A stretch of 22,500 nt of DNA from a virus. The DNA lies in the IMG/VR virus record IMGVR_UViG_3300022707_001782, positions 1 to 22,500 of that record, one strand, 5' to 3'. Shown piece after piece: positions 1,217-18,153 of this stretch (its first letter is position 1; every line of letters begins with the position of its first letter). Both the position numbers and the translations under genes were made by a program. The notes under the pieces were generated by a model. It saw only the letters and a list, made by a program, of their open reading frames with translations, was not told where the DNA came from and searched no databases.

Positions 1217-1482
1217 ATCTGACAATTTCCCTGTGCGGCTGTGGAGATGAAGCGACCAGCACGAATGGTCACGTACCAGAATGTGAAGTATGCAAAGACT
1301 CGAGAGAGCAGGCTGAGGCCAAAGGCTCACATATCGAATCTCGTCATTCTTTGGCCCCTAGAGAGTCGACATGGGAGGAAGATAGGCAAGAGGTCATCGA
1401 AGATCAAAAACGCGCTGAGTGCGAGTTTTATCCCCGTGCTTGCTATGACGAACGCTTCGATCCTTCCATCGACCGATCATGA
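1213..1482 (+). CDS. Small zinc-knuckle-like protein, unknown function
   Basis: 89 residues. The N-terminus has CGCG (C8, C10), H20, and CEVC (C24, C27), a spacing compatible with one zinc site. The remainder is highly charged and rich in Glu and Arg, with two more cysteines near the end. It overlaps the upstream gene by ATGA and the downstream gene by ATGA (1479), which supports this frame over the alternative frame beginning at 1241. Function not recognised. Confidence 0.55.
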   Translation: MNLTISLCGCGDEATSTNGHVPECEVCKDSREQAEAKGSHIESRHSLAPRESTWEEDRQEVIEDQKRAECEFYPRACYDERFDPSIDRS

Positions 1483-1673
1483 GTGATTTCCTCAAAATCA
1501 TAGATAGGGCTGTTTCTGATATTCGTTTCTCACACAATACAAGGAAATGGCTGGATGAGATGAGTACAAATCAATTTGCACAACTTTTGGCAGATTACAT
1601 CGAAAGTGATGAGATTGGTTTTATTGATTTCGTCGTAGAATCATATAGCGAAGAACAATCCAAATATCTCTAA
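1479..1673 (+). CDS. Small unknown protein
   Basis: 64 residues, acidic and probably all helical (MSDFLKIIDRAV, then QFAQLLADYIES and FIDFVVESYSEEQ). It starts in an ATGA overlap with the previous gene. It is more AT-rich than its neighbours, which may mean a separate origin. No motif recognised. Confidence 0.6.
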   Translation: MSDFLKIIDRAVSDIRFSHNTRKWLDEMSTNQFAQLLADYIESDEIGFIDFVVESYSEEQSKYL

Positions 1674-1687
1674 TTTCCCCCTATCAC

Positions 1688-2290
1688 ATGAAGAAAACAG
1701 ATTTAGTCGCGACACTGGCCTCACTCACTCTTCCAGAGGAACAGATCAGGCTTCTCAGCAAGCCGACTCCTTCTGAGTTTATCTTCGAGCGCAAAGGCGC
1801 TGGAGGAAAAACATTCAGCTACGTGGACATCGGATACGTCACGGGACGACTCAATCACATTTTCGGGAGCATGTGGAGCTTCGAGGTGAAGGACAAGGCG
1901 GTAGAAGAGTCACTCGGTCAGGTGTGGGTTCTCGGAGAGCTGAAAGTGCTGTGCTCCGACGGGAAGATCATCACCAAAAACCAATTCGGCTCATCCGACT
2001 TGAAGTTTCAGAAGGTGCGCGTATGCCCTGAGTGTATGTCTCAGCTTCCGTATAAGTGGAATACGTGTCAGGAATGTGACGTGAACATGAACGATAAAGA
2101 AGTAATCAGGAAGCCTCTCAGTGTGGGTGATGACCTCAAATCCGCAACCTCCGATTCCATGAAGAAGTGCGCCTCGATGCTCGGACTCGCTGCCGACGTT
2201 TACTTCCCGAAGACGTGGGCGCTGGTCGAGAAGATGCGCCCTGCCATCGAAGAGAAAGAGAAATCTTCCCCCGAAAAAGATGCAGAGTAA
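1688..2290 (+). CDS. Rad52-like single-strand annealing protein with inserted zinc ribbon
   Basis: 200 residues. The core fits the Rad52/22 family of phage annealing proteins, which pair complementary single strands in recombination-dependent replication. Seen are YVDIGYVTGRLNHIFG (45-60) with WSFEV, VWVLGELKV (79-87), NQFGSSDLK (98-106), and the family signature DDLKSATSDSMKKCASMLGL (148-167), a nucleic-acid-binding helix region. Between strand and helix sits an extra CPEC (C113, C116) ... CQEC (C127, C130), a four-cysteine zinc ribbon that I do not expect in the minimal fold. The acidic C-terminus resembles tails that contact single-strand-binding proteins. The start is preceded by CCCCC, not by a Shine-Dalgarno sequence. 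Sak-type is the likeliest subfamily; the exact family needs a profile search. Confidence 0.75.
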   Translation: MKKTDLVATLASLTLPEEQIRLLSKPTPSEFIFERKGAGGKTFSYVDIGYVTGRLNHIFGSMWSFEVKDKAVEESLGQVWVLGELKVLCSDGKIITKNQFGSSDLKFQKVRVCPECMSQLPYKWNTCQECDVNMNDKEVIRKPLSVGDDLKSATSDSMKKCASMLGLAADVYFPKTWALVEKMRPAIEEKEKSSPEKDAE

Positions 2291-2531
2291 CAACGACACA
2301 TCACAGGCTGCGGGAGAAATATCCCATTACGCACTTAATCATTCCGAGGGATGCTCAGTGTGCTTTCGGCGAAGAAAGGCTCTTGAGGCAGTAGCGAAGA
2401 AACACAAGATGATGGAGGAGGCAATGCAATGGTTCGTGGATCGCGTGGACAAAGGAGAGGTGCGCAGCGTGAAGACGTATGCGAAATTCAAAGAGATTCT
2501 GGCCCATGACCCCATCAAAGATGCTCTTTAA
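2280..2531 (+). CDS. Small unknown protein with CxxC
   Basis: 83 residues. After a polar N-terminus comes H16, H21 and CSVC (C25, C28) followed by FRRRK, a possible zinc knuckle. Then come a long charged helix and FKEILAHDP. It overlaps the annealing-protein gene by 11 nt and the next gene by 11 nt. Its ATG lies 8 nt after a CCCCC run. Function unknown; its position next to the annealing protein suggests a role in DNA metabolism. Confidence 0.6.
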   Translation: MQSNNDTSQAAGEISHYALNHSEGCSVCFRRRKALEAVAKKHKMMEEAMQWFVDRVDKGEVRSVKTYAKFKEILAHDPIKDAL

Positions 2532-2739
2532 GAAAAAGCCGTCGGCGATGGATGAGGCTCTTAGCGAGCTGAAAGACCCGATCAAGGAAGATACCTCACT
2601 GCCTGGGTTGCTTTTGTGTCTGCATAAGGCGGGGTTCGAGTGTACGAAAGCTATCGGCAAATTGTGTCGCACGAACTCTATGATGATTTCGATTCTGTAC
2701 CTCCTTTTCCTTCTCCATCTCATTCTCGAGTTACTATGA
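2521..2739 (+). CDS. Small protein with C-terminal membrane segment
   Basis: 72 residues from the ATG at 2521, which overlaps the upstream stop; longer in-frame starts exist but would lie deep inside the previous gene. The N-terminus is basic (MLFKKKP), then charged. The last 22 residues (SMMISILYLLFLLHLILELL) look like a tail anchor. It ends in an ATGA overlap with the next gene. Tail-anchored topology is inferred; function unknown. Confidence 0.5.
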   Translation: MLFKKKPSAMDEALSELKDPIKEDTSLPGLLLCLHKAGFECTKAIGKLCRTNSMMISILYLLFLLHLILELL

Positions 2740-2945
2740 ACATGGACGACACGATACTATCGGCAGTGACAAAGGCAATGCAGGAGAAAAACGCAGAGCG
2801 CTTCGAAGAGATATACCACGAGGAGCTGAATAAAGTGCTCCTGATGGTAGTGCAGACGCACGACCAAAAGCTCTATGGCTCTCTTCTCGGAGTGCTTCTA
2901 CTACGCGATCACCTCGAAGACATGCGTCACCCCCAAAAAGACTGA
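2736..2945 (+). CDS. Small acidic helical protein, unknown
   Basis: 69 residues from the ATG of the ATGA overlap at 2736; an upstream ATG at 2640 in the same frame would overlap the previous gene by 100 nt and is less likely. The sequence is amphipathic and acidic (MNMDDTILSAVTKAM, then ERFEEIYHEELNKVLL). It ends in a TGATG overlap with the next gene. No family recognised. Confidence 0.5.
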   Translation: MNMDDTILSAVTKAMQEKNAERFEEIYHEELNKVLLMVVQTHDQKLYGSLLGVLLLRDHLEDMRHPQKD

Positions 2946-3130
2946 TGAATAAGCACCTCAAACGATTCGGCATGACTAAGGAAACATCTGTCGGGATCGC
3001 AGTGAAGTTCCCAAAGCCACTGGAGAACCCTTACCCGTGGTACAAGGGTTATCTGACGGATAGGGAGAGCGGTCTCTTGGGTCTTCTAATCGGCTTAATC
3101 ATCGGCTCTTTTCTTGCTTCTATTTTTTAA
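2945..3130 (+). CDS. Small membrane protein
   Basis: 61 residues. The first two thirds are basic and polar (MNKHLKRFGMTKE, then PYPWYKGYLTDRES). Residues 43-61 form one hydrophobic helix (LLGLLIGLIIGSFLASIF) with glycine spacing that would allow helix packing. It starts in a TGATG overlap. It is one of a series of tiny one-helix proteins in this phage. Function unknown. Confidence 0.6.
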   Translation: MNKHLKRFGMTKETSVGIAVKFPKPLENPYPWYKGYLTDRESGLLGLLIGLIIGSFLASIF

Positions 3131-3141
3131 CTCCCTGACCA

Positions 3142-3531
3142 ATGAAACCAGACCCACAAATCTCAGAAGACTTGCGCAAATTCATGCGCAAGTTCCACGA
3201 AACGAACACATCTATCGCTGCCGCAGTAGGTACATCTGCTCAGGTTATTCAGGGATATGCTGAATACACTGAGGAGAACAATAACAAGCAATTCTGGCGT
3301 GATCCGATCATTCAGAAGATCGTAAAATACATGGATAAAGTGTGGCTCGAATCTGAGGAAGATGACAAAATTGAGCAGGGCAAAGAGCTACAGAAGACGC
3401 AGGAGAGGAAGGCAAAGGAATTGCGGAAGAAGACGCTCTATAAGCGAGCAAAGGTGATACATGCCATCATGGATTCTGCGCACATGACTGACGAGGAGAA
3501 GGAGGAGAACATTCTTCCCTTCATGGACTGA
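3142..3531 (+). CDS. Unknown helical protein
   Basis: 129 residues, all helical by appearance. Residues 20-45 (NTSIAAAVGTSAQVIQGYAEY) might be a small helical or helix-turn-helix-like unit. Residues 72-105 are a long lysine/glutamate coiled coil (KELQKTQERKAKELRKKTL). The leader CTCCCTGACCA repeats the CCTGACCAATG string found before the gene at 944. It ends in a TGATG overlap with the YopX gene. Function not recognised. Confidence 0.6.
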   Translation: MKPDPQISEDLRKFMRKFHETNTSIAAAVGTSAQVIQGYAEYTEENNNKQFWRDPIIQKIVKYMDKVWLESEEDDKIEQGKELQKTQERKAKELRKKTLYKRAKVIHAIMDSAHMTDEEKEENILPFMD

Positions 3532-3860
3532 TGGCACCATTACGATTCAGAGCTTGGTTTCCAAATCTCAAAGTAATGGGATTTTTGAATTTTCCAGTAG
3601 CCAAAGATTCAGATTTTGTGCAGTGGGCGGGATTAAAAATCATGCAATCCACAGGACTCAAAGACCTCAATGGCAAAGAGATTTACGAGGGAGACATCTA
3701 TCTCCTCCTGTCGCAAAAGAAGCTGTGCAAAACGGAGGCGGCACGAAGACGATGCGCGAAGGTAGTGGAGTGGAATGAAAAAACTGCGGGATACAATCTA
3801 TCGACAGATCAATGCGAAGTCACAGGCAATATCTTCGAGAATCCCGAACTGATGCTATGA
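3531..3860 (+). CDS. YopX family protein
   Basis: 109 residues. The middle and C-terminus match the YopX family of small phage proteins: a W..L and MQSTGLKDLNGKEIYEGDIY (39-58), then VVEWNEK, and VTGNIFENPEL at the end, which is the family hallmark. The fold is mainly beta and the molecular role is not established. It starts in TGATG and ends in ATGA overlaps, in the middle of the early operon. An extra basic loop (LSQKKLCKTEAARRR) sits between the two conserved blocks. Confidence 0.85.
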   Translation: MAPLRFRAWFPNLKVMGFLNFPVAKDSDFVQWAGLKIMQSTGLKDLNGKEIYEGDIYLLLSQKKLCKTEAARRRCAKVVEWNEKTAGYNLSTDQCEVTGNIFENPELML

Positions 3861-4186
3861 GTGATCCTTCATTCAAGGACTGGCTTGCTACTAGACCCAA
3901 AGCTGTGCAGGAACTCGCCAAGAAATATCCTCCAGGGCAGTACCGAATCGCTGAGTTCGCACCCTATGGAATCTCCTGCGCGGGTACGATTGTAGACTTG
4001 TATTCCTACACCGAATCTGGAGAGGTCGGGGTGATAGTCAGATCAGGAAATAAACTCCCAAGCTGCCTTTTGCATGAACGGTGTTTGGCGGAGGAGTTCG
4101 GAAAGAATGACCCTCATCACGATAAGAACGTTCTGGTTCACATTGATCCGATCTGGATGGAGCCATTGCCCGATGACAATGATTGA
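3857..4186 (+). CDS. Unknown early protein
   Basis: 109 residues from the ATG in the ATGA overlap at 3857; an in-frame ATG at 3812 lies inside YopX and is unlikely. The N-terminus is helical (DWLATRPKAVQELAKKYPPG). The rest looks beta-rich, with YRIAEFAPYG, GTIVDLYSY and EVGVIVRS, then an acidic tail with WMEPLPDDND. It may be a small SH3-like beta barrel, but no family is recognised. It overlaps the thyX start by 14 nt. Confidence 0.6.
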   Translation: MSDPSFKDWLATRPKAVQELAKKYPPGQYRIAEFAPYGISCAGTIVDLYSYTESGEVGVIVRSGNKLPSCLLHERCLAEEFGKNDPHHDKNVLVHIDPIWMEPLPDDND

Positions 4187-4799
4187 ATATATCTCTCACA
4201 TGGGCAACGATCTCACTGTGGTGAATGCCGCCAGAGTGTCCTTCCAGAATCACAAAGAGGAGATGGACGAGAAGGATGAGAAGCTCATCCGATACCTAGC
4301 AAAGCACAATCATTGGACTCCATTCGCTCACCCACAGATCACGCTCAGGATCAAAGCGCCCGTCGCAATCAGGACACAGTTCTTCAAGCACAAGCAGGGA
4401 TTCGTGGAGAATGAAGTGAGCCGTAGGTATGTATCTTCTCCGCCAGAAATTTACACACCGAAGCAATGGAGGCAAGCGTCTGAGAATAAAAAGCAAGGCA
4501 GCGCTGGCGCAGCCGAGAGATCGCCAATGAGGGATCATGTATACGATTACGCCATACAGAAAGCAATCGGCTGTTACAATCTCCTGATCGCCGATGGAAT
4601 ATGCCCTGAGCAAGCGCGGTTCGTCCTGCCTCAAGCGATGTTCACGGAATGGTACTGGACTGGATCGCTCGCGGCATACGCTCGCTTCTACAAGCTCAGA
4701 AGCTCAGAGGATGCTCAGGGAGAGATACAGGAGTATGCAGAGGGGATCGCGACAATCATCAGACCACTATTTCCTATTTCCTGGCCTGCCCTGACATGA
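4173..4799 (+). CDS. thyX: Flavin-dependent thymidylate synthase ThyX
   Basis: 208 residues, the usual ThyX length. ThyX makes dTMP from dUMP using methylene-tetrahydrofolate and NADPH with bound FAD, supplying thymidylate for phage replication. Seen are RVSFQNHKEE near the N-terminus, HWTPFAHPQITL (47-58), the signature region RTQFFKHKQGFVENEVSRRY (67-86), and EQARFVLPQ with TEWYWTGSLAAYARF (146-172). The signature has KHK where many ThyX proteins have RHR; the NEVSRRY part is intact. ATG 4173 or 4179 are both possible starts, since both overlap the end of the previous gene; the ATG at 4074 would give a non-homologous extension. It ends in an ATGA overlap with a small membrane gene. Confidence 0.93.
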   Translation: MTMIEYISHMGNDLTVVNAARVSFQNHKEEMDEKDEKLIRYLAKHNHWTPFAHPQITLRIKAPVAIRTQFFKHKQGFVENEVSRRYVSSPPEIYTPKQWRQASENKKQGSAGAAERSPMRDHVYDYAIQKAIGCYNLLIADGICPEQARFVLPQAMFTEWYWTGSLAAYARFYKLRSSEDAQGEIQEYAEGIATIIRPLFPISWPALT

Positions 4800-8300: not shown

Positions 8301-8726
8301 ATGACAACTGTTTTCCCTGGCGCGATTGATAGCTTCACGAATCCGACTCCTACGGATACTCTTGACTCGGTTACTGTCCCTCACGCGGATCAACACGAAG
8401 ATGCAAACGACGCTATCGAGGCATTAGAAGCGAAGGTAGGAAAGGACAGTTCAGCAGTTACCACATCGCACGACTTTAAGATCAGAGAGCTAGAGACGCA
8501 GGACATCTTCAACGAAACACCGTCAGGAACGATTGATGGTGTCAATGCGACTTTCACTTTGGTGAATACAGTTGCTCCCGCTAATTCGCTCATGCTCTAC
8601 AAGAATGGATTGCTGCAAGCGGCTGGAGTCTCAAACGATTTCACCCTTTCAGGTTCTACGATCACGTTCAACGCGGGTGCTATTCCGAAGTCGGGTGACA
8701 CCTTGATCGCTACCTATCGAAAATAA
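8301..8726 (+). CDS. Tail-fibre-like / virion decoration protein
   Basis: 141 residues. The N-terminus has VTVPHADQHEDANDAIEALE followed by KVGKDSS, a phrase common at the start of phage fibre and appendage proteins. From about residue 75 comes a beta module with TPSGTIDGVNATFTLVN, LMLYKNGLLQ, DFTLSGSTITF and SGDTLIATYRK. The same module closes the next protein (8748-9827), so the two are modular relatives. It is probably exposed on the virion. It is leaderless, with its own promoter. Confidence 0.7.
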   Translation: MTTVFPGAIDSFTNPTPTDTLDSVTVPHADQHEDANDAIEALEAKVGKDSSAVTTSHDFKIRELETQDIFNETPSGTIDGVNATFTLVNTVAPANSLMLYKNGLLQAAGVSNDFTLSGSTITFNAGAIPKSGDTLIATYRK

Positions 8727-8735
8727 TCCTTGTGT

Positions 8736-8741
8736 TATCAT
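8736..8741 (+). promoter_or_regulatory. -10 box TATCAT, leaderless start
   Basis: TGT precedes TATCAT, which ends 6 nt before the ATG at 8748. The whole intergenic gap is only 21 nt, so almost nothing but the -10 box fits between the two genes. Confidence 0.65.
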
Positions 8742-8747
8742 TGAGCC

Positions 8748-9827
8748 ATGCCAGTAACAGAAATCAGAGGGGACGATCAGATCAAAGCGCTCACCATTAC
8801 GAACGCGGAGATCGCCACGGCTGCCGCAATCGAACTCTCGAAGCTGGAGGAGGCGGTTATTCAGGCTGATGGCGGACAGGACTTCACAGGGGAACAGTCG
8901 ATGGGGAGCAATAAGCTCACGAATCTGGATGATGGTACGGATGCCACAGATGCAGTAAACCTCGGACAGCTTCAAGCGCAGCAAGCAGGACTCTCATGGA
9001 AGGACAAGGTGCGTGCTACTACCACTGTGGATGGCGCACTGGCTACTGCATACGAGGACGGAGACGTGATCGATGGTGTGACGCTGGCGACAGGGGATCG
9101 TATCTTGATTAAAAATCAGAGTGCAGGAGCAGAGAATGGTATCTACGATGTTGCGGCATCAGGCGCACCTACTCGCTCTACGGATGCAGACACAGGCGCA
9201 GAAGTAGAGAGCGCTGCTGTATTCGTTGCAGAGGGAACATTGAATGCAGACGCAGCCTTCGTGCAGACCACAGAGCCGATCACGATTGACGTGACCGCTC
9301 AGACATGGGTGCAATTCAGTGGACTCGGACAGATCACCGCAGGTTCAGGTCTTTCAAAGACAGGGAACACTATCAACGTAGGAGCAGGAAATGGTATCAC
9401 CGTGAACGCAGACGATGTCGAGGCTCGCCCAGATTCAAGTGCAGACTCGATCGATGTGATCGCTGGAGGTATCAAGATCAAAGACGGAGCAGATGCTCAG
9501 ATTCTCGTTGCGAACGGATCAGGTGTGTACAAGCGCGTGACCATGAGCGGCGACGCTACCATCGACAACGCAGGAGTTGTTACGGTTACGGCTGGAGACT
9601 TTGTCGTACGTGAAGTGCCAAGCGGAGCAATCAACGGCGTGAACACCACCTTCACACTCGCAGACACTCCCATCGCAGGATCAGAGGAGCTGTACCTGAA
9701 TGGAATCTTGCAGAACCTTGGCGGGTCAAACGATTACACAATCTCTGGAGCAACAATCACGATGAACAGCGCACCGAAGTCCTCACCAGGAAACCCAGAT
9801 GTGCTTCTGGTGAGCTATCGCAAGTAA
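8748..9827 (+). CDS. Tail fibre protein
   Basis: 359 residues, beta-rich and modular. Residues 45-75 carry MGSNKLTNLDDGTDATDAVN, the usual fibre linker, then QAGLSWKDKVRATTT, DGVTLATGDRILIKNQ, AENGIYDV and QFSGLGQITAGSGLSKTGN, a module widely found in phage tail fibres. Residues 290-359 repeat the C-terminal module of the previous gene (VPSGAINGVNTTFTL, ELYLNGILQ, VLLVSYRK). It probably forms a trimeric fibre that binds the host surface. It stands before the packaging genes instead of after the tape measure, which is less usual. Confidence 0.82.
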   Translation: MPVTEIRGDDQIKALTITNAEIATAAAIELSKLEEAVIQADGGQDFTGEQSMGSNKLTNLDDGTDATDAVNLGQLQAQQAGLSWKDKVRATTTVDGALATAYEDGDVIDGVTLATGDRILIKNQSAGAENGIYDVAASGAPTRSTDADTGAEVESAAVFVAEGTLNADAAFVQTTEPITIDVTAQTWVQFSGLGQITAGSGLSKTGNTINVGAGNGITVNADDVEARPDSSADSIDVIAGGIKIKDGADAQILVANGSGVYKRVTMSGDATIDNAGVVTVTAGDFVVREVPSGAINGVNTTFTLADTPIAGSEELYLNGILQNLGGSNDYTISGATITMNSAPKSSPGNPDVLLVSYRK

Positions 9828-10764: not shown

Positions 10765-10945
10765 AGGGGTGCATGAAGTGATACCTCCCATCATCTCCTG
10801 CGATGTGATTGAGGTTCCCCATTCGATTGCGAGACACTGTGCGAAGCTCGTCCTGAATACAGCGCCGACTCTCCAGTGGGATACTCAGCAGATCAGAGAC
10901 CACGCGGATGCGATTGATTTTTTTAAGGCGATGGTGAAGAAATGA
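10709..10945 (+). CDS. Unknown protein upstream of VRR-NUC
   Basis: 78 residues from ATG 10709, which begins MPSKKRPPKERKSQSPKSEG, a disordered basic N-terminus. Then come VIPPIISCDVIEVPH and a helical part ending DHADAIDFFKAMVKK. A GTG at 10771 would avoid the 56-nt overlap with the previous gene and give about 57 residues. It ends in an ATGA overlap with the VRR-NUC gene. No family recognised. Confidence 0.5.
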   Translation: MPSKKRPPKERKSQSPKSEGVHEVIPPIISCDVIEVPHSIARHCAKLVLNTAPTLQWDTQQIRDHADAIDFFKAMVKK

Positions 10946-11265
10946 AAGAGGCAGACATACTCAAGGCGTGCAAAGATTGGCTCGCCGCCAAACACATCTT
11001 CCACTTCCGTGTAAATAACACAGGCATGTGGAATGAGGCGAAAGGGAGGTTCCACACTTTTCATGGAACAAAGGGAGTGTCGGACATCATCGGTATCCTT
11101 CCAGGTGGGAGATTCTTCGCTTGTGAGGTGAAGACAGAAAAGGGCAAAGTCTCCGACGCGCAGGAGAAGTTTCTGACAGGAGTGGATTGCGCTGGAGGAC
11201 TCGCAATGATAGTGCGCTCCGTGGATGATCTGGAGCAGTTTATTAGTGAGGAAATTGGTAGCTGA
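10942..11265 (+). CDS. VRR-NUC domain nuclease
   Basis: 107 residues, the size of single-domain phage VRR-NUC proteins (a PD-(D/E)xK nuclease branch related to Holliday-junction and flap cutting enzymes). Motifs in order: E3 at the N-terminal helix, KGVSDIIGILPGGRFFACEVK with D48, E62 and K64 as the catalytic D...ExK, then KVSDAQEKFLTGV with the conserved Gln, and AMIVRSVDDLEQFI as the closing strand and helix. It probably resolves branched DNA in phage replication or before packaging. It is coupled by ATGA to the preceding gene and is followed by the long non-coding stretch. Confidence 0.88.
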   Translation: MKEADILKACKDWLAAKHIFHFRVNNTGMWNEAKGRFHTFHGTKGVSDIIGILPGGRFFACEVKTEKGKVSDAQEKFLTGVDCAGGLAMIVRSVDDLEQFISEEIGS

Positions 11266-11280
11266 GGTCGCAAAAACAGG

Positions 11281-11286
11281 CATAAT
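11281..11286 (+). promoter_or_regulatory. Possible -10 box CATAAT for the structured RNA
   Basis: CATAAT lies about 15 nt before the 5' base of the long stem at 11301. If used with the usual spacing, transcription would start near 11293. A TTGGTA at 11255-11260 could act as -35 but the 20-nt spacer is long. Weak. Confidence 0.3.
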
Positions 11287-11300
11287 AAGTCTCCGTTCTT

Positions 11301-11523
11301 TCAATGTCTCGCGCGGGTGTGGTGCTATAAGTAAAAATGCACGATGAAGCCCAATAAGTCGGATGCGCCGTAAATAGCACATTCCCCCTAGTGATGCACT
11401 AAAAAGGCTCGCTGTGGTAGATCACGTAATTTCTGCTCGTGGGGAAAAGTAAAGGGTGCGTACCCTTCTTGCCACCTGGGTCTCGGTGGCGATAGTGTAA
11501 GCCACACTCCCGCGAGGCATTGA
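11301..11523 (+). ncRNA. Candidate structured RNA, multi-branched, 22-bp closing stem
   Basis: The 291-nt stretch 11266-11556 has no plausible gene. Its bases 11301-11322 pair with 11502-11523 over 22 positions with a single C-C mismatch and a few G-U pairs. Inside, four hairpins follow in order: A, TGCTAT (11323-11328) / ATAGCA (11374-11379); B, TTCCCC (11382-11387) / GGGGAA (11441-11446), itself enclosing TAGTG-ATG-CACTA (11389-11401); C, AAGGGT-GCGT-ACCCTT (11452-11467); D, GCCACC / GGTGGC (11471-11490) with an 8-nt loop. This is a five-way junction of about 220 nt. It does not match tRNA, tmRNA, SRP, 6S or RNase P RNA as far as I can see. It sits between the replication-type genes and the packaging genes, where cos or pac sites and packaging RNAs can occur. 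The strand is assumed from the neighbours. Confidence 0.6.
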
Positions 11524-11544
11524 GTGTTGTGGAGCGCTTCAAGG

Positions 11545-11550
11545 TAAGAT
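11545..11550 (+). promoter_or_regulatory. -10 box TAAGAT, leaderless start
   Basis: TAAGAT ends 6 nt before the ATG at 11557 and begins 21 nt after the long RNA stem ends, the same hairpin-then-promoter spacing as at 5311 and 8289. Confidence 0.55.
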
Positions 11551-11556
11551 AGAAGC

Positions 11557-11745
11557 ATGGGCATTACTTACAACGAAACGGGGATCATCTATAACGATCC
11601 AAAGTTCTGTTACAACGGAATCGCTTGTGCGTTAGAAGCAAAGCAATGTCCACCGTTCTTTGTGATGATAAGGGACACAGTTCCCGCCGAGGTGAGAGTG
11701 ATAAGGGACACAGTGCCAGCCGTCCCTGTGGTGCTACAATGCTGA
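11557..11745 (+). CDS. Small repetitive protein before the packaging genes
   Basis: 62 residues. The first part has a tyrosine rhythm (GITYNETGIIYNDPKFCYNG), and the second a repeated unit IRDTVPAEVRV / IRDTVPAVPVV that comes from a 16-bp direct repeat in the DNA. The start is set by TAAGAT. Its end lies inside the promoter region of the next gene. No family recognised; position suggests a minor structural part. Confidence 0.5.
   Translation: MGITYNETGIIYNDPKFCYNGIACALEAKQCPPFFVMIRDTVPAEVRVIRDTVPAVPVVLQC
11666..11714 (+). repeat. 16-bp direct repeat, 33-bp period
   Basis: TGATAAGGGACACAGT occurs at 11666-11681 and 11699-11714. The second copy contains AGGGAC (11704-11709), which can pair with GTCCCT (11722-11727) just before the TACAAT box at 11735. 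It encodes the IRDTVPA repeat, so it may be a protein repeat, an operator pair, or both. Confidence 0.6.
11735..11740 (+). promoter_or_regulatory. -10 box TACAAT, leaderless start
   Basis: TGC precedes TACAAT (extended -10), which ends 6 nt before the ATG at 11747. It overlaps the end of the preceding coding sequence. Confidence 0.65.
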
Positions 11746-11746
11746 C

Positions 11747-12121
11747 ATGCCACACTTTGAAGTATTTGAGGGCGAGGCGTTCAACATTCCTTTTGAATTG
11801 CAGTACGACAGGTTTTGGTCAGAGGTCTCGAAGAGAGGGCAACCAGTGAAACAGAGCGAGGTGACGACCACGTTTTTCTTCGTGAAGGAGAAGGACAGCG
11901 ATGCCAACGCGTTCATGACACTCACGGATGCGACTACTGCTGAGATCGAGTGGACTACTCCGAATGAAGGAAAGCTCACCGTAAAGCTCGATACCTCCAC
12001 TGAGGGGAAAGTTGGAAAGAAACGACCCTACGAATTGAGAATCAAACTCGTCGATGGAACATTCACCACTGTGGACTCAGGAACGCTCGACATTCTGGAG
12101 TCCACCGTAGATACCCCGTAG
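11747..12121 (+). CDS. Ig-like beta-sandwich protein, probably structural
   Basis: 124 residues in regular strands: FEVFEGEAFNIPFEL, EVTTTFFFVKEKDSD, AFMTLTDATTAEIEW, GKLTVKLDT, RPYELRIKLVDGTF and VDSGTLDIL. The order resembles the N-terminal beta domain of phage baseplate or decoration proteins. It lies just before the terminase and has its own promoter. The fold is inferred from strand pattern; the role is inferred from position. Confidence 0.6.
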   Translation: MPHFEVFEGEAFNIPFELQYDRFWSEVSKRGQPVKQSEVTTTFFFVKEKDSDANAFMTLTDATTAEIEWTTPNEGKLTVKLDTSTEGKVGKKRPYELRIKLVDGTFTTVDSGTLDILESTVDTP

Positions 12122-12138: not shown

Positions 12139-12186
12139 GTGAGTGATCTTCGTGGTAGATTGTACCCACCTTCGTTTTATGGATGA
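12139..12186 (+). CDS. Possible 15-aa leader peptide overlapping the terminase start
   Basis: The GTG at the leaderless distance from CATAGT opens a frame MSDLRGRLYPPSFYG and a TGA at 12184-12186. The terminase ATG (12179) lies inside its last codons, so translation of the peptide could deliver ribosomes to the terminase start. It may instead be incidental, with the terminase beginning at GTG 12143. Confidence 0.3.
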   Translation: MSDLRGRLYPPSFYG

Positions 12187-13612
12187 TCTTCGCTCTCTCA
12201 GGCAAGAAAACAAAAAAGAATTTCTCGATGAAATTCTCAAACAATTCATAGCCTTCTCAAAGGAAGATTTCGGGATTGATCTCTACGAATCACAGATAGA
12301 AACAGCTATCGTGATGTTTGAGAGTGTGTTCTTCTCGCACAAAGATGTGTACATGAAGATGGCGAGGCAGGGAGGAAAGACAGAAGTGCTCACGCTGATC
12401 GTTCGTTTTCTCATCATCAATTACAGAGAGATCATGGACGATCCACTGATGGTGGCGTTTGCGTCCCCGCAGGGAGAACAGGCGAAGACCGACATCGACA
12501 GGATCAAAAAGACCTGGGACATTCTCAAAAACAAGTGGCGAATGGATGACAGGGAGTTCAATAAAAATACGATCCGCGCTTACGTCGGAGACATTCTGAT
12601 GGCTGAGGTTTACCGCTTCTCTCTCGCTCCGACTACGAGGAATGAGTCGAAGACGATAAATCTGCTCATTGTGGAAGAAGCGCACAATGTCGATGACATC
12701 AAAAGAGAGGATGAACTCGATCCGATGCTTGTCTCCACGGGAGGCCCGTCGTTCTTCCTGGGTGTTGGCTGCACACGGCTTTGTGATTTCAAGCGAGGCT
12801 GTGATGGAGAGAAGTCTGAGAGTGTTGCCCTCCTGTACGATTGTGACAGGCTTATCGCTGATAGATTCGCAATGTACAAGCGGACTGGCGATACGAAACA
12901 TCTCTCTTACGCCGAAAAAATCAAATCAGAGATCGCCAAAAAGGGGAGAGAGAATCCACAAGTAAAGCGCAACTACTTTCTGGAAGATACGGTCGAGGAA
13001 GGTGGCTTTATATCGCGTGATCGTTTGCTTTCCTGCCATCAGGAAGGCGATGCGAAGGTGGATCAAAGTGCACTCTACGTTGGGATCGACTTCGGACGTA
13101 GAGTGGACTTCTCATGGGTGTGCGTCACGAATGTGGATAAGGACGTGGTGAACTGGTTTAAGTATCCACACATCGAAACAGAGGATCAGTTGAAAATGAT
13201 TTGGGAGGACTTGAAGCAGTACAAGGGCAGGATCATGGCGATCCGTGGTGACTCTACGGGGGCAGGGGACATGCCGATGGAGTGGCTGATGCGTCACACC
13301 GATCTCCCAATGGGGGAACAGAGCCATTATATCTTCGGCCCGCAGTCAAAACATGATCTATATACACACTTCGAGAACTGCTTATTTAAGGAAAAAGGAA
13401 CCGATGAACGTTTCTCATATCCCGCCAATCATCCGCTTGCATCGCAATTTGAGGAGGAAATGATAAACCTGCACAGGGAGTACAGAGGCGACCGCGCTTT
13501 CCTCGCAGTAAACCATCCTCCAGGCGGCGGAACTCATGATGACAGCGCGGATGCAACGTCACTCTCCCTGATCGCGAGCGCTTCGGGAAAAATCGGTGAT
13601 ATAATCTTCTAG
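12179..13612 (+). CDS. terL: Terminase large subunit
   Basis: 477 residues from ATG 12179. The motor ATPase has Walker A MARQGGKTEVL (61-71), adenine-side SQIETA, and Walker B LLIVEEAH (162-169, catalytic Glu). The C-terminal RNase H-like nuclease has GIDFGRRVDFSWV (D304), AIRGDSTG (D358) and HDDSADATSLSL (D454/D455). The enzyme pumps DNA into the prohead through the portal and cuts the concatemer. It is directly before the portal gene. No small terminase subunit is recognised next to it. The start is uncertain: GTG 12143 is in frame and would add MIFVVDCTHLRF. Confidence 0.93.
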   Translation: MDDLRSLRQENKKEFLDEILKQFIAFSKEDFGIDLYESQIETAIVMFESVFFSHKDVYMKMARQGGKTEVLTLIVRFLIINYREIMDDPLMVAFASPQGEQAKTDIDRIKKTWDILKNKWRMDDREFNKNTIRAYVGDILMAEVYRFSLAPTTRNESKTINLLIVEEAHNVDDIKREDELDPMLVSTGGPSFFLGVGCTRLCDFKRGCDGEKSESVALLYDCDRLIADRFAMYKRTGDTKHLSYAEKIKSEIAKKGRENPQVKRNYFLEDTVEEGGFISRDRLLSCHQEGDAKVDQSALYVGIDFGRRVDFSWVCVTNVDKDVVNWFKYPHIETEDQLKMIWEDLKQYKGRIMAIRGDSTGAGDMPMEWLMRHTDLPMGEQSHYIFGPQSKHDLYTHFENCLFKEKGTDERFSYPANHPLASQFEEEMINLHREYRGDRAFLAVNHPPGGGTHDDSADATSLSLIASASGKIGDIIF

Positions 13613-16791: not shown

Positions 16792-18153
16792 ATGGACGAT
16801 AAGAAATCAGCGCTGACCGACGAACAATTAAAGACGCTGAACGAGCGCGTGTTCGCCGCAAAGCCAGAAGATCGTCAAGCTGAGGTTATGAAGTATTTTG
16901 CAGAGCTTTCTGGCGCAGAAGTGAAGGAGAAAAAAGCTCCTGAACTGAACGTCACCTTTACTGATGAGCAACTTACTCGTGTTCTCGCTGGAGGCGTGGA
17001 TGCGAAGGAGGTTGCAAAAGACGTTACTGAATCTCTTAAAGAAATTCGCGGTGTGGATCACGTTAGAGCTAAAGAAGCCGTGACCAAAGAGATCACTGAC
17101 AAACTCAGTAAGGTGGAACAGAGGCGCATAGAGAACAAACTCGTAGCTAATTCCTTCCGTGCCCTTTATCAGATGAAGAAGGGTTACGGGAGCTTTCAAG
17201 CTGTCGAGGATGCCTACAACCGTGAAGCAGACTATCTCGGAAGAGAGACTGCCTTCACGTCTCAGAACAAAGAAGAGCGTGCAATGTCAGTTGGCACTGA
17301 CACGGCAGGTGGATTCTTTTCTCCTGAGATTTTCTCGACGATGCTCTTTGAGCGACTTGAGAAATACGGCATGGCACGAATGCACGCGAACATGATTCCG
17401 ATGGAGTCTGAGATTCTCAGATTTCCTCGTTTGACTTCGGACGTGACTGCGGCGGTAACTGCGGAAGCAGCTACAATCGCAGCAAGCGATATTGTGTCGG
17501 CACAGCTCACACTCCAGCCTCAAAAACTGGCAGTGATGGCTGGCCCTTTCTCGGACGAGCTTCTCTTGCACGCTGATCCTGGGATTGTGGAGATTCTTAA
17601 TGACTCCTCAGCCCGTGCTCTTGCAAAACTCGAAGACAATAACGTCTTCATCGGAGACGCAGCTTCCTTCACAGGACTGCTCGAAAATGCGACAACGAAT
17701 ACGGTGAACATTACAGGTGCTCTCAGTACGATCACCTTCGACGACATCATCAATCTTCAAGATGCTCTCGAGGAAAGATTTAGAACTGCGGGTGTTGGAT
17801 TCTGGTGGAACAAGACTGTTACCCGTGAACTGCGCAAGCAGAAGGGTGCAGATCAGTTCTTTTGGGGAGACATGGCAAGCTCGAGAGAGCGAACCATTCT
17901 CGGTGATCCGTACTTCCACATTGTCGACATGGACGCTTCCCCTTCTGGCGTAGACACAGATTTCGGAGTCTATATGGACTTGGATTTGGTGTGGGTCGGA
18001 ACCCGTGGAGGTCTTCGAATCGACATGCTCACAGAAGGTACTGTGAGTGGTGTAAACCTCGGTGAGACTGCAAGCATGGCTCTTCGCGTTCTTGAGTATT
18101 GGGATAACGAAGTCATCGACAATGACGGAGTTGCCCTTATCAGAACAAGTTAG
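16792..18153 (+). CDS. Major capsid protein (HK97 fold)
   Basis: 453 residues. Residues 1-164 are charged and helical, the delta (scaffold) domain. The mature part probably begins near 165 (MSVGTDTAGGFFSPEIFSTM), giving about 289 residues. Typical HK97-fold elements follow: MESEILRFPRLTSDVTAAVT, VSAQLTLQPQKLAVMAGPFS, a helix with ALAKLEDNNVFIGDA, and WWNKTVTRELRKQKGADQFF. Cleavage by the protease just upstream is expected around residues 160-165. It should be the most abundant phage protein, yet the start has no Shine-Dalgarno sequence, only TTACCCAAAACTTAGTT. Confidence 0.93.
   Translation: MDDKKSALTDEQLKTLNERVFAAKPEDRQAEVMKYFAELSGAEVKEKKAPELNVTFTDEQLTRVLAGGVDAKEVAKDVTESLKEIRGVDHVRAKEAVTKEITDKLSKVEQRRIENKLVANSFRALYQMKKGYGSFQAVEDAYNREADYLGRETAFTSQNKEERAMSVGTDTAGGFFSPEIFSTMLFERLEKYGMARMHANMIPMESEILRFPRLTSDVTAAVTAEAATIAASDIVSAQLTLQPQKLAVMAGPFSDELLLHADPGIVEILNDSSARALAKLEDNNVFIGDAASFTGLLENATTNTVNITGALSTITFDDIINLQDALEERFRTAGVGFWWNKTVTRELRKQKGADQFFWGDMASSRERTILGDPYFHIVDMDASPSGVDTDFGVYMDLDLVWVGTRGGLRIDMLTEGTVSGVNLGETASMALRVLEYWDNEVIDNDGVALIRTS

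Follow-up and report, generated by a model that had tools for sequence, protein, structure and literature searches.

A long paired stem in the gene-free gap before the packaging genes of an uncultured phage

Genomic context of the gap

The locus lies in a 22.5-kb virus record of an uncultured phage from IMG/VR, which was analysed over its whole length and is referred to here as the window. The plus strand carries all plausible genes of the window. DNA-metabolism genes coding for a Rad52-like protein, ThyX and HNH nucleases are located upstream, and virion structural-type genes are found at 8301-9827, i.e., already 5' of the gap considered here. The ThyX gene (4074-4799) has its best phage match in the podophage Lau218 (58% identical). 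A VRR-NUC nuclease gene then precedes the gap, which is followed by orf62 and by the genes for a phrog_1084 protein, the large terminase subunit (terL), portal, protease, capsid and connector (Table 1). The product of orf62 has neither a PHROG nor a Pfam match; its gene contains a short direct repeat (11665-11735), which reads MIRDTVPAEV / VIRDTVPAVP in the protein and comprises two copies of GATAAGGGACACAGT in the DNA.

The gap extends from the VRR-NUC stop (11265) to the ATG of orf62 (11557). The original prediction of a 291-nt stretch devoid of plausible genes holds: the ORF lists contain no plus-strand ORF of at least 50 aa in 11266-11556, and the sole plus-strand frame of at least 20 aa that enters the gap is 40 aa long and begins within the nuclease gene. 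No terminator-like site was detected on the plus strand of the gap. Directly 5' of the orf62 ATG, a small hairpin is predicted with a probability of 0.93-0.94 when the gap is folded alone and of about 0.5 in longer contexts.

Table 1. Features of the gap and its neighbourhood (window coordinates)
Feature	Position	Strand	Evidence
VRR-NUC nuclease gene, upstream neighbour of the gap	10942-11265	+	PF08774, 4e-6; phrog_93, 4.5e-21
Gene-free gap, VRR-NUC gene to orf62	11266-11556	+	ORF lists
Possible P1 extension, pairs with 11531-11534	11291-11294	+	probability context-dependent
P1, 5' arm (C-C mismatch at 11314)	11300-11323	+	pair probabilities; stem score 50; shuffles
Proposed first inner domain (P2/P2a)	11323-11379	+	z -0.2, P2 probability 0.26: not beyond chance
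Proposed P3 domain, sub-hairpins 11389-11414 and 11416-11437	11383-11445	+	probabilities 0.79-1.0; z -2.5
Predicted hairpin P4, AAGGGU-GCGU-ACCCUU	11452-11467	+	probability 0.89
Predicted hairpin P5, loop UGGGUCUC	11470-11491	+	probability 0.99-1.0; loop scan
P1, 3' arm	11501-11524	+	pair probabilities; stem score 50; shuffles
Small hairpin, candidate ribosome-binding site AAGG in loop, directly 5' of orf62 ATG	11536-11556	+	pair probabilities
orf62, small protein, first gene 3' of the element	11557-11745	+	ORF list
phrog_1084 small protein (function unknown)	11747-12121	+	PHROG; relative upstream of terL in L059
terL, ATPase and nuclease motifs	12143-13612	+	phrog_2, 5.5e-12; conserved columns

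The outer stem

The inverted repeat, the gene-free gap that holds it, its position and the co-directional genes around it are seen directly, and the outer stem, P1, is a real and statistically unusual feature. It had been proposed as a pairing of 11301-11322 with 11502-11523, with one C-C mismatch and a few G-U pairs, and was recovered with slightly wider limits. P1 comprises 23 pairs, four of them G-U, in two segments (11300-11313/11511-11524 and 11315-11323/11501-11509) separated by the C-C mismatch at 11314/11510. Its pair probabilities are mostly near 1, and the same in contexts of up to 800 nt. The stem encloses about 180 nt, giving an element of about 225 nt in total, and its 3' foot is located 32 nt 5' of the start of orf62, the first packaging gene. 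A possible extension of P1 has a probability of 0.94-0.97 in 11266-11556 and of 0.09-0.26 in longer contexts. An 8-base repeat, AATAAGTC, is present just 5' of the element (11284-11291) and inside it (11353-11360), which is near chance level.

In a scan of the window for ungapped stems with a spacing of 60-320 nt, P1 is the top long-range stem, with a score of 50 as compared to 34 for the next. The score depends on the strand (50 on plus, 38 on minus) because the imperfect positions, apart from the single C-C, are G-U rather than A-C; this apparent strand bias rests on very few positions. Among 120 dinucleotide-shuffled whole windows, the maximum stem score averaged 37 (sd 3.5), and one window reached 51. 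The Gumbel probability of the P1 score anywhere in 22.5 kb is about 0.005, and about 0.5-1% of shuffled windows hold an equally good stem.

The folding control suggested with the original prediction, a comparison of 11290-11530 with shuffled sequences, gave -87 kcal/mol and z-scores of -3.8 on the plus and -4.1 on the minus strand. For 11290-11535, z was -4.5, and across runs the whole region ranged from about -3.3 to -4.5. This low energy is mostly carried by the outer stem. A stretch within the major capsid gene (17221-17460) also folds unusually well (z -2.9 on plus, -3.7 on minus), and because it scores comparably, a functional RNA cannot be deduced here from fold energy alone.

The enclosed region

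The structure had been proposed as a large RNA in which four further hairpins complete a five-way junction, with so much nested complementarity that chance seemed unlikely. The outer stem provides most of the support for a structured element; the specific five-way RNA gains no support beyond chance from the interior. On its own, the interior (11325-11499, 175 nt) has a z-score of -1.0 on the plus strand, where 45 of 300 shuffles fold as well, and of -2.1 on the minus strand; when the arms are kept and the interior alone is shuffled, z is -0.4 on the plus strand, with 67 of 200 shuffles as good.

The four inner hairpins fare differently. The first, at 11323-11380, does not stand out from shuffles (z -0.2), whereas the others do so modestly (z -2.5 for 11380-11447 and -2.3 for 11447-11500); for the P3 domain and for P4-P5, about 2% of shuffles are as good. 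The part 11381-11500 reaches a z-score of -2.4, as compared to -1.0 for the interior as a whole. In contexts of 225 to 800 nt, helix probabilities are 0.89-1.0 for P3a, P3b, P4 and P5, 0.80 for P2a, 0.79 for P3 and 0.26 for P2. The UGGGU of the P5 loop could pair with GCCCA at 11349-11353, a candidate P2a-P5 loop-loop contact of 5 bp. Since the first inner domain is unsupported and the other domains are modestly supported, the five-way junction remains a model and is not established.

Relatives and searches for homologues

In keeping with the undescribed look noted at the outset, none of the 4227 Rfam families, the search of which had likewise been suggested, matched in the window at the gathering score. 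When the gap was searched with E up to 10, a single chance snoRNA match of 10.6 bits was obtained, and ARAGORN found neither a tRNA nor a tmRNA. Blastn against phages and plasmids gave no match.

A scan of IMG/VR with the single terL protein gave no relative, a capsid-protein scan gave one (L038) and a portal scan only distant ones; alignment scans led to L056/L057, L058 and L059. These amount to four independent relatives, L056 and L057 being identical, with terminases about 47-50% identical. L059 is a Planctomycetota-binned contig. The late module is common to the relatives wherever their sequence extends, and one 57-kb contig keeps the late-gene order. In the 57-kb relative, the region 3' of the nuclease gene proved to hold a minus-strand frame rather than a homologous RNA.

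Neither blastn nor a covariance model matched the RNA in the four relatives, of which L038 cannot speak to its presence because it begins 51 nt before its terL. L059 has a phrog_1084 relative upstream of terL and lacks the RNA. The covariance model was built from the single sequence of the element with the weak helix P2 omitted; it found no homologue in the relatives or their contigs, and a run without filters gave no more than scattered matches of low bit score. One 19-bit match (E 0.006 per genome) among 392 genomes of the L059 phylum is at about chance level and falls in an ordinary bacterial intergenic region. Two 16-base patterns from the element, searched in IMG/VR, led to 34 loci that lack the RNA and to one hit that the model did not match. 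The collections searched, from which near records may be missing, yielded no close relatives, and the missing matches do not show that the RNA would be absent from nearer kin.

Interpretation

The explanation that we favour, tentatively and well short of confidence, is that the element may act in cis as an intercistronic mRNA element, most likely an RNase III-type processing stem. RNase III processing stems occur at the flanks of pre-rRNA and at sites in T7 early mRNA, and the substrates of the enzyme are about two helical turns long. P1 resembles them in being a long near-perfect helix of about two turns between presumably co-transcribed genes, and a double-stranded stretch of about 20 bp, flanked by co-directional genes, is indeed what is found; because of the helix length, RNase III would be the likely enzyme. 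Transcription across the gap, folding, cleavage and an effect on expression are all inferred here, and the searches gave no homologue of the element.

The element could function in the following manner: A late transcript would run from the nuclease gene through orf62, the phrog_1084 gene and terL to the portal gene. In this transcript, the 23-pair helix would form around the enclosed nucleotides and serve as a double-stranded RNase III-type processing site, at which the nuclease message may be cut from the packaging message. Cleavage would leave a structured 5' leader on the packaging message, and this leader, together with the small hairpin at the ribosome-binding site of orf62, could tune expression. 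The processing stem is supported by P1 being an outlier in the window that is stable in every context tried, by its stronger complementarity on the mRNA strand and by its location between same-strand genes with no terminator-like plus-strand site. Against it stand the missing homologues, the relatives that share the late module and do without the element, and a plus-strand interior no better than chance.

The main rival, possible and somewhat less likely, is an inverted repeat acting at the DNA level, with the RNA fold being incidental. The repeat could serve in binding, packaging (pac/cos-linked), replication or recombination, or be what is left of a small mobile element that had inverted ends. 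The whole region folds about as well on one strand as on the other, the interior has a rather better z-score on the minus strand and looks unstructured on the plus strand, the site borders the packaging genes and the element is missing from relatives, all of which would suit such a site. However, as DNA the arms split into 6-bp exact blocks, and no inverted repeat is detected with a 7-base exact seed; no target duplication is visible in the flanks, the contig holds no second copy, and an exact TTATCCACA box is absent, with 2-mismatch matches only.

Less probable still, the element would belong to a new family of non-coding RNAs, trans-acting or structural in role, and be excised at the outer stem. 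The high pair probabilities of P3, P4 and P5 with their modestly better folding, the possible loop-loop pairing and the failure to match any known family would be consistent with it. The first inner domain and the interior as a whole, however, do not stand out, with many loop pairs to compare, a 5-bp match between loops is expected by chance, none of the collections searched yielded a homologue, and neither a promoter nor a terminator belonging to the element was convincingly seen. GOLLD and ROOL are likewise phage-encoded RNAs of unknown function, for which Rfam models exist (PMC12286853); they are larger and often located near tRNAs, and their models did not match the element.

Chance complementarity without function is unlikely. 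Equally good stems do arise in shuffled windows at the frequency given above and the interior is ordinary, but P1 falls in a gene-free gap that makes up about 1% of the window, an after-the-fact consideration that renders chance less likely still. Slightly more doubtful is the most far-reaching form of the non-coding RNA idea, a new class of phage RNA of about 225 nt that would be excised at the long stem and take part in packaging or in the control of late genes; the uncultured phages of this lineage would, as far as the fragment shows, have no small terminase beside the large one.

A processive antitermination or attenuation leader of the late operon, similar to the put RNAs of HK022, is improbable. 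A structured nascent RNA where the packaging genes begin would fit, as put RNAs come after the promoters in phage operons (PMC9378689). They measure about 70 nt, however, and consist of two stem-loops (PMC9378689), in contrast to an element of about 225 nt with one long closing stem; moreover, no terminators were mapped downstream, and structural-type genes already lie upstream.

Structured intercistronic elements are common in kind in phages, with few known outside model phages. If the element proved to be a separate RNA, the phage non-coding RNAs would gain one without relatives in Rfam; at present, it is of value as a candidate whose RNA ends could be mapped or that could be compared with close relatives once these are sequenced.

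A packaging RNA of the phi29 type working with the terminase, one of the roles envisaged originally, is very improbable because the terminase has ordinary ATPase and nuclease motifs, as read from an alignment in which the candidate acidic nuclease residues D316, D370 and D466/D467 are conserved with the relatives. In contrast, the phi29 RNA partners a terminase with a vestigial nuclease fold, measures 174 or 120 nt and is described as peculiar to phi29 and its relatives among Bacillus phages (PMC11476376). The element shares with it a phage origin, the order of size and the vicinity of packaging functions, and lacks an Rfam match. A PHROG search did not recognise a small terminase beside terL in the window, while L058 has one directly 5' of terL (3526-4053; phrog_3064, 5e-15); the contig is a fragment, however, so the gene could be elsewhere. 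Among the frames preceding terL in L056, no small terminase was recognised either; according to its translation, a chaperonin (GroEL-like) gene is located at 1435-3015 of that contig, shortly upstream of the terminase.
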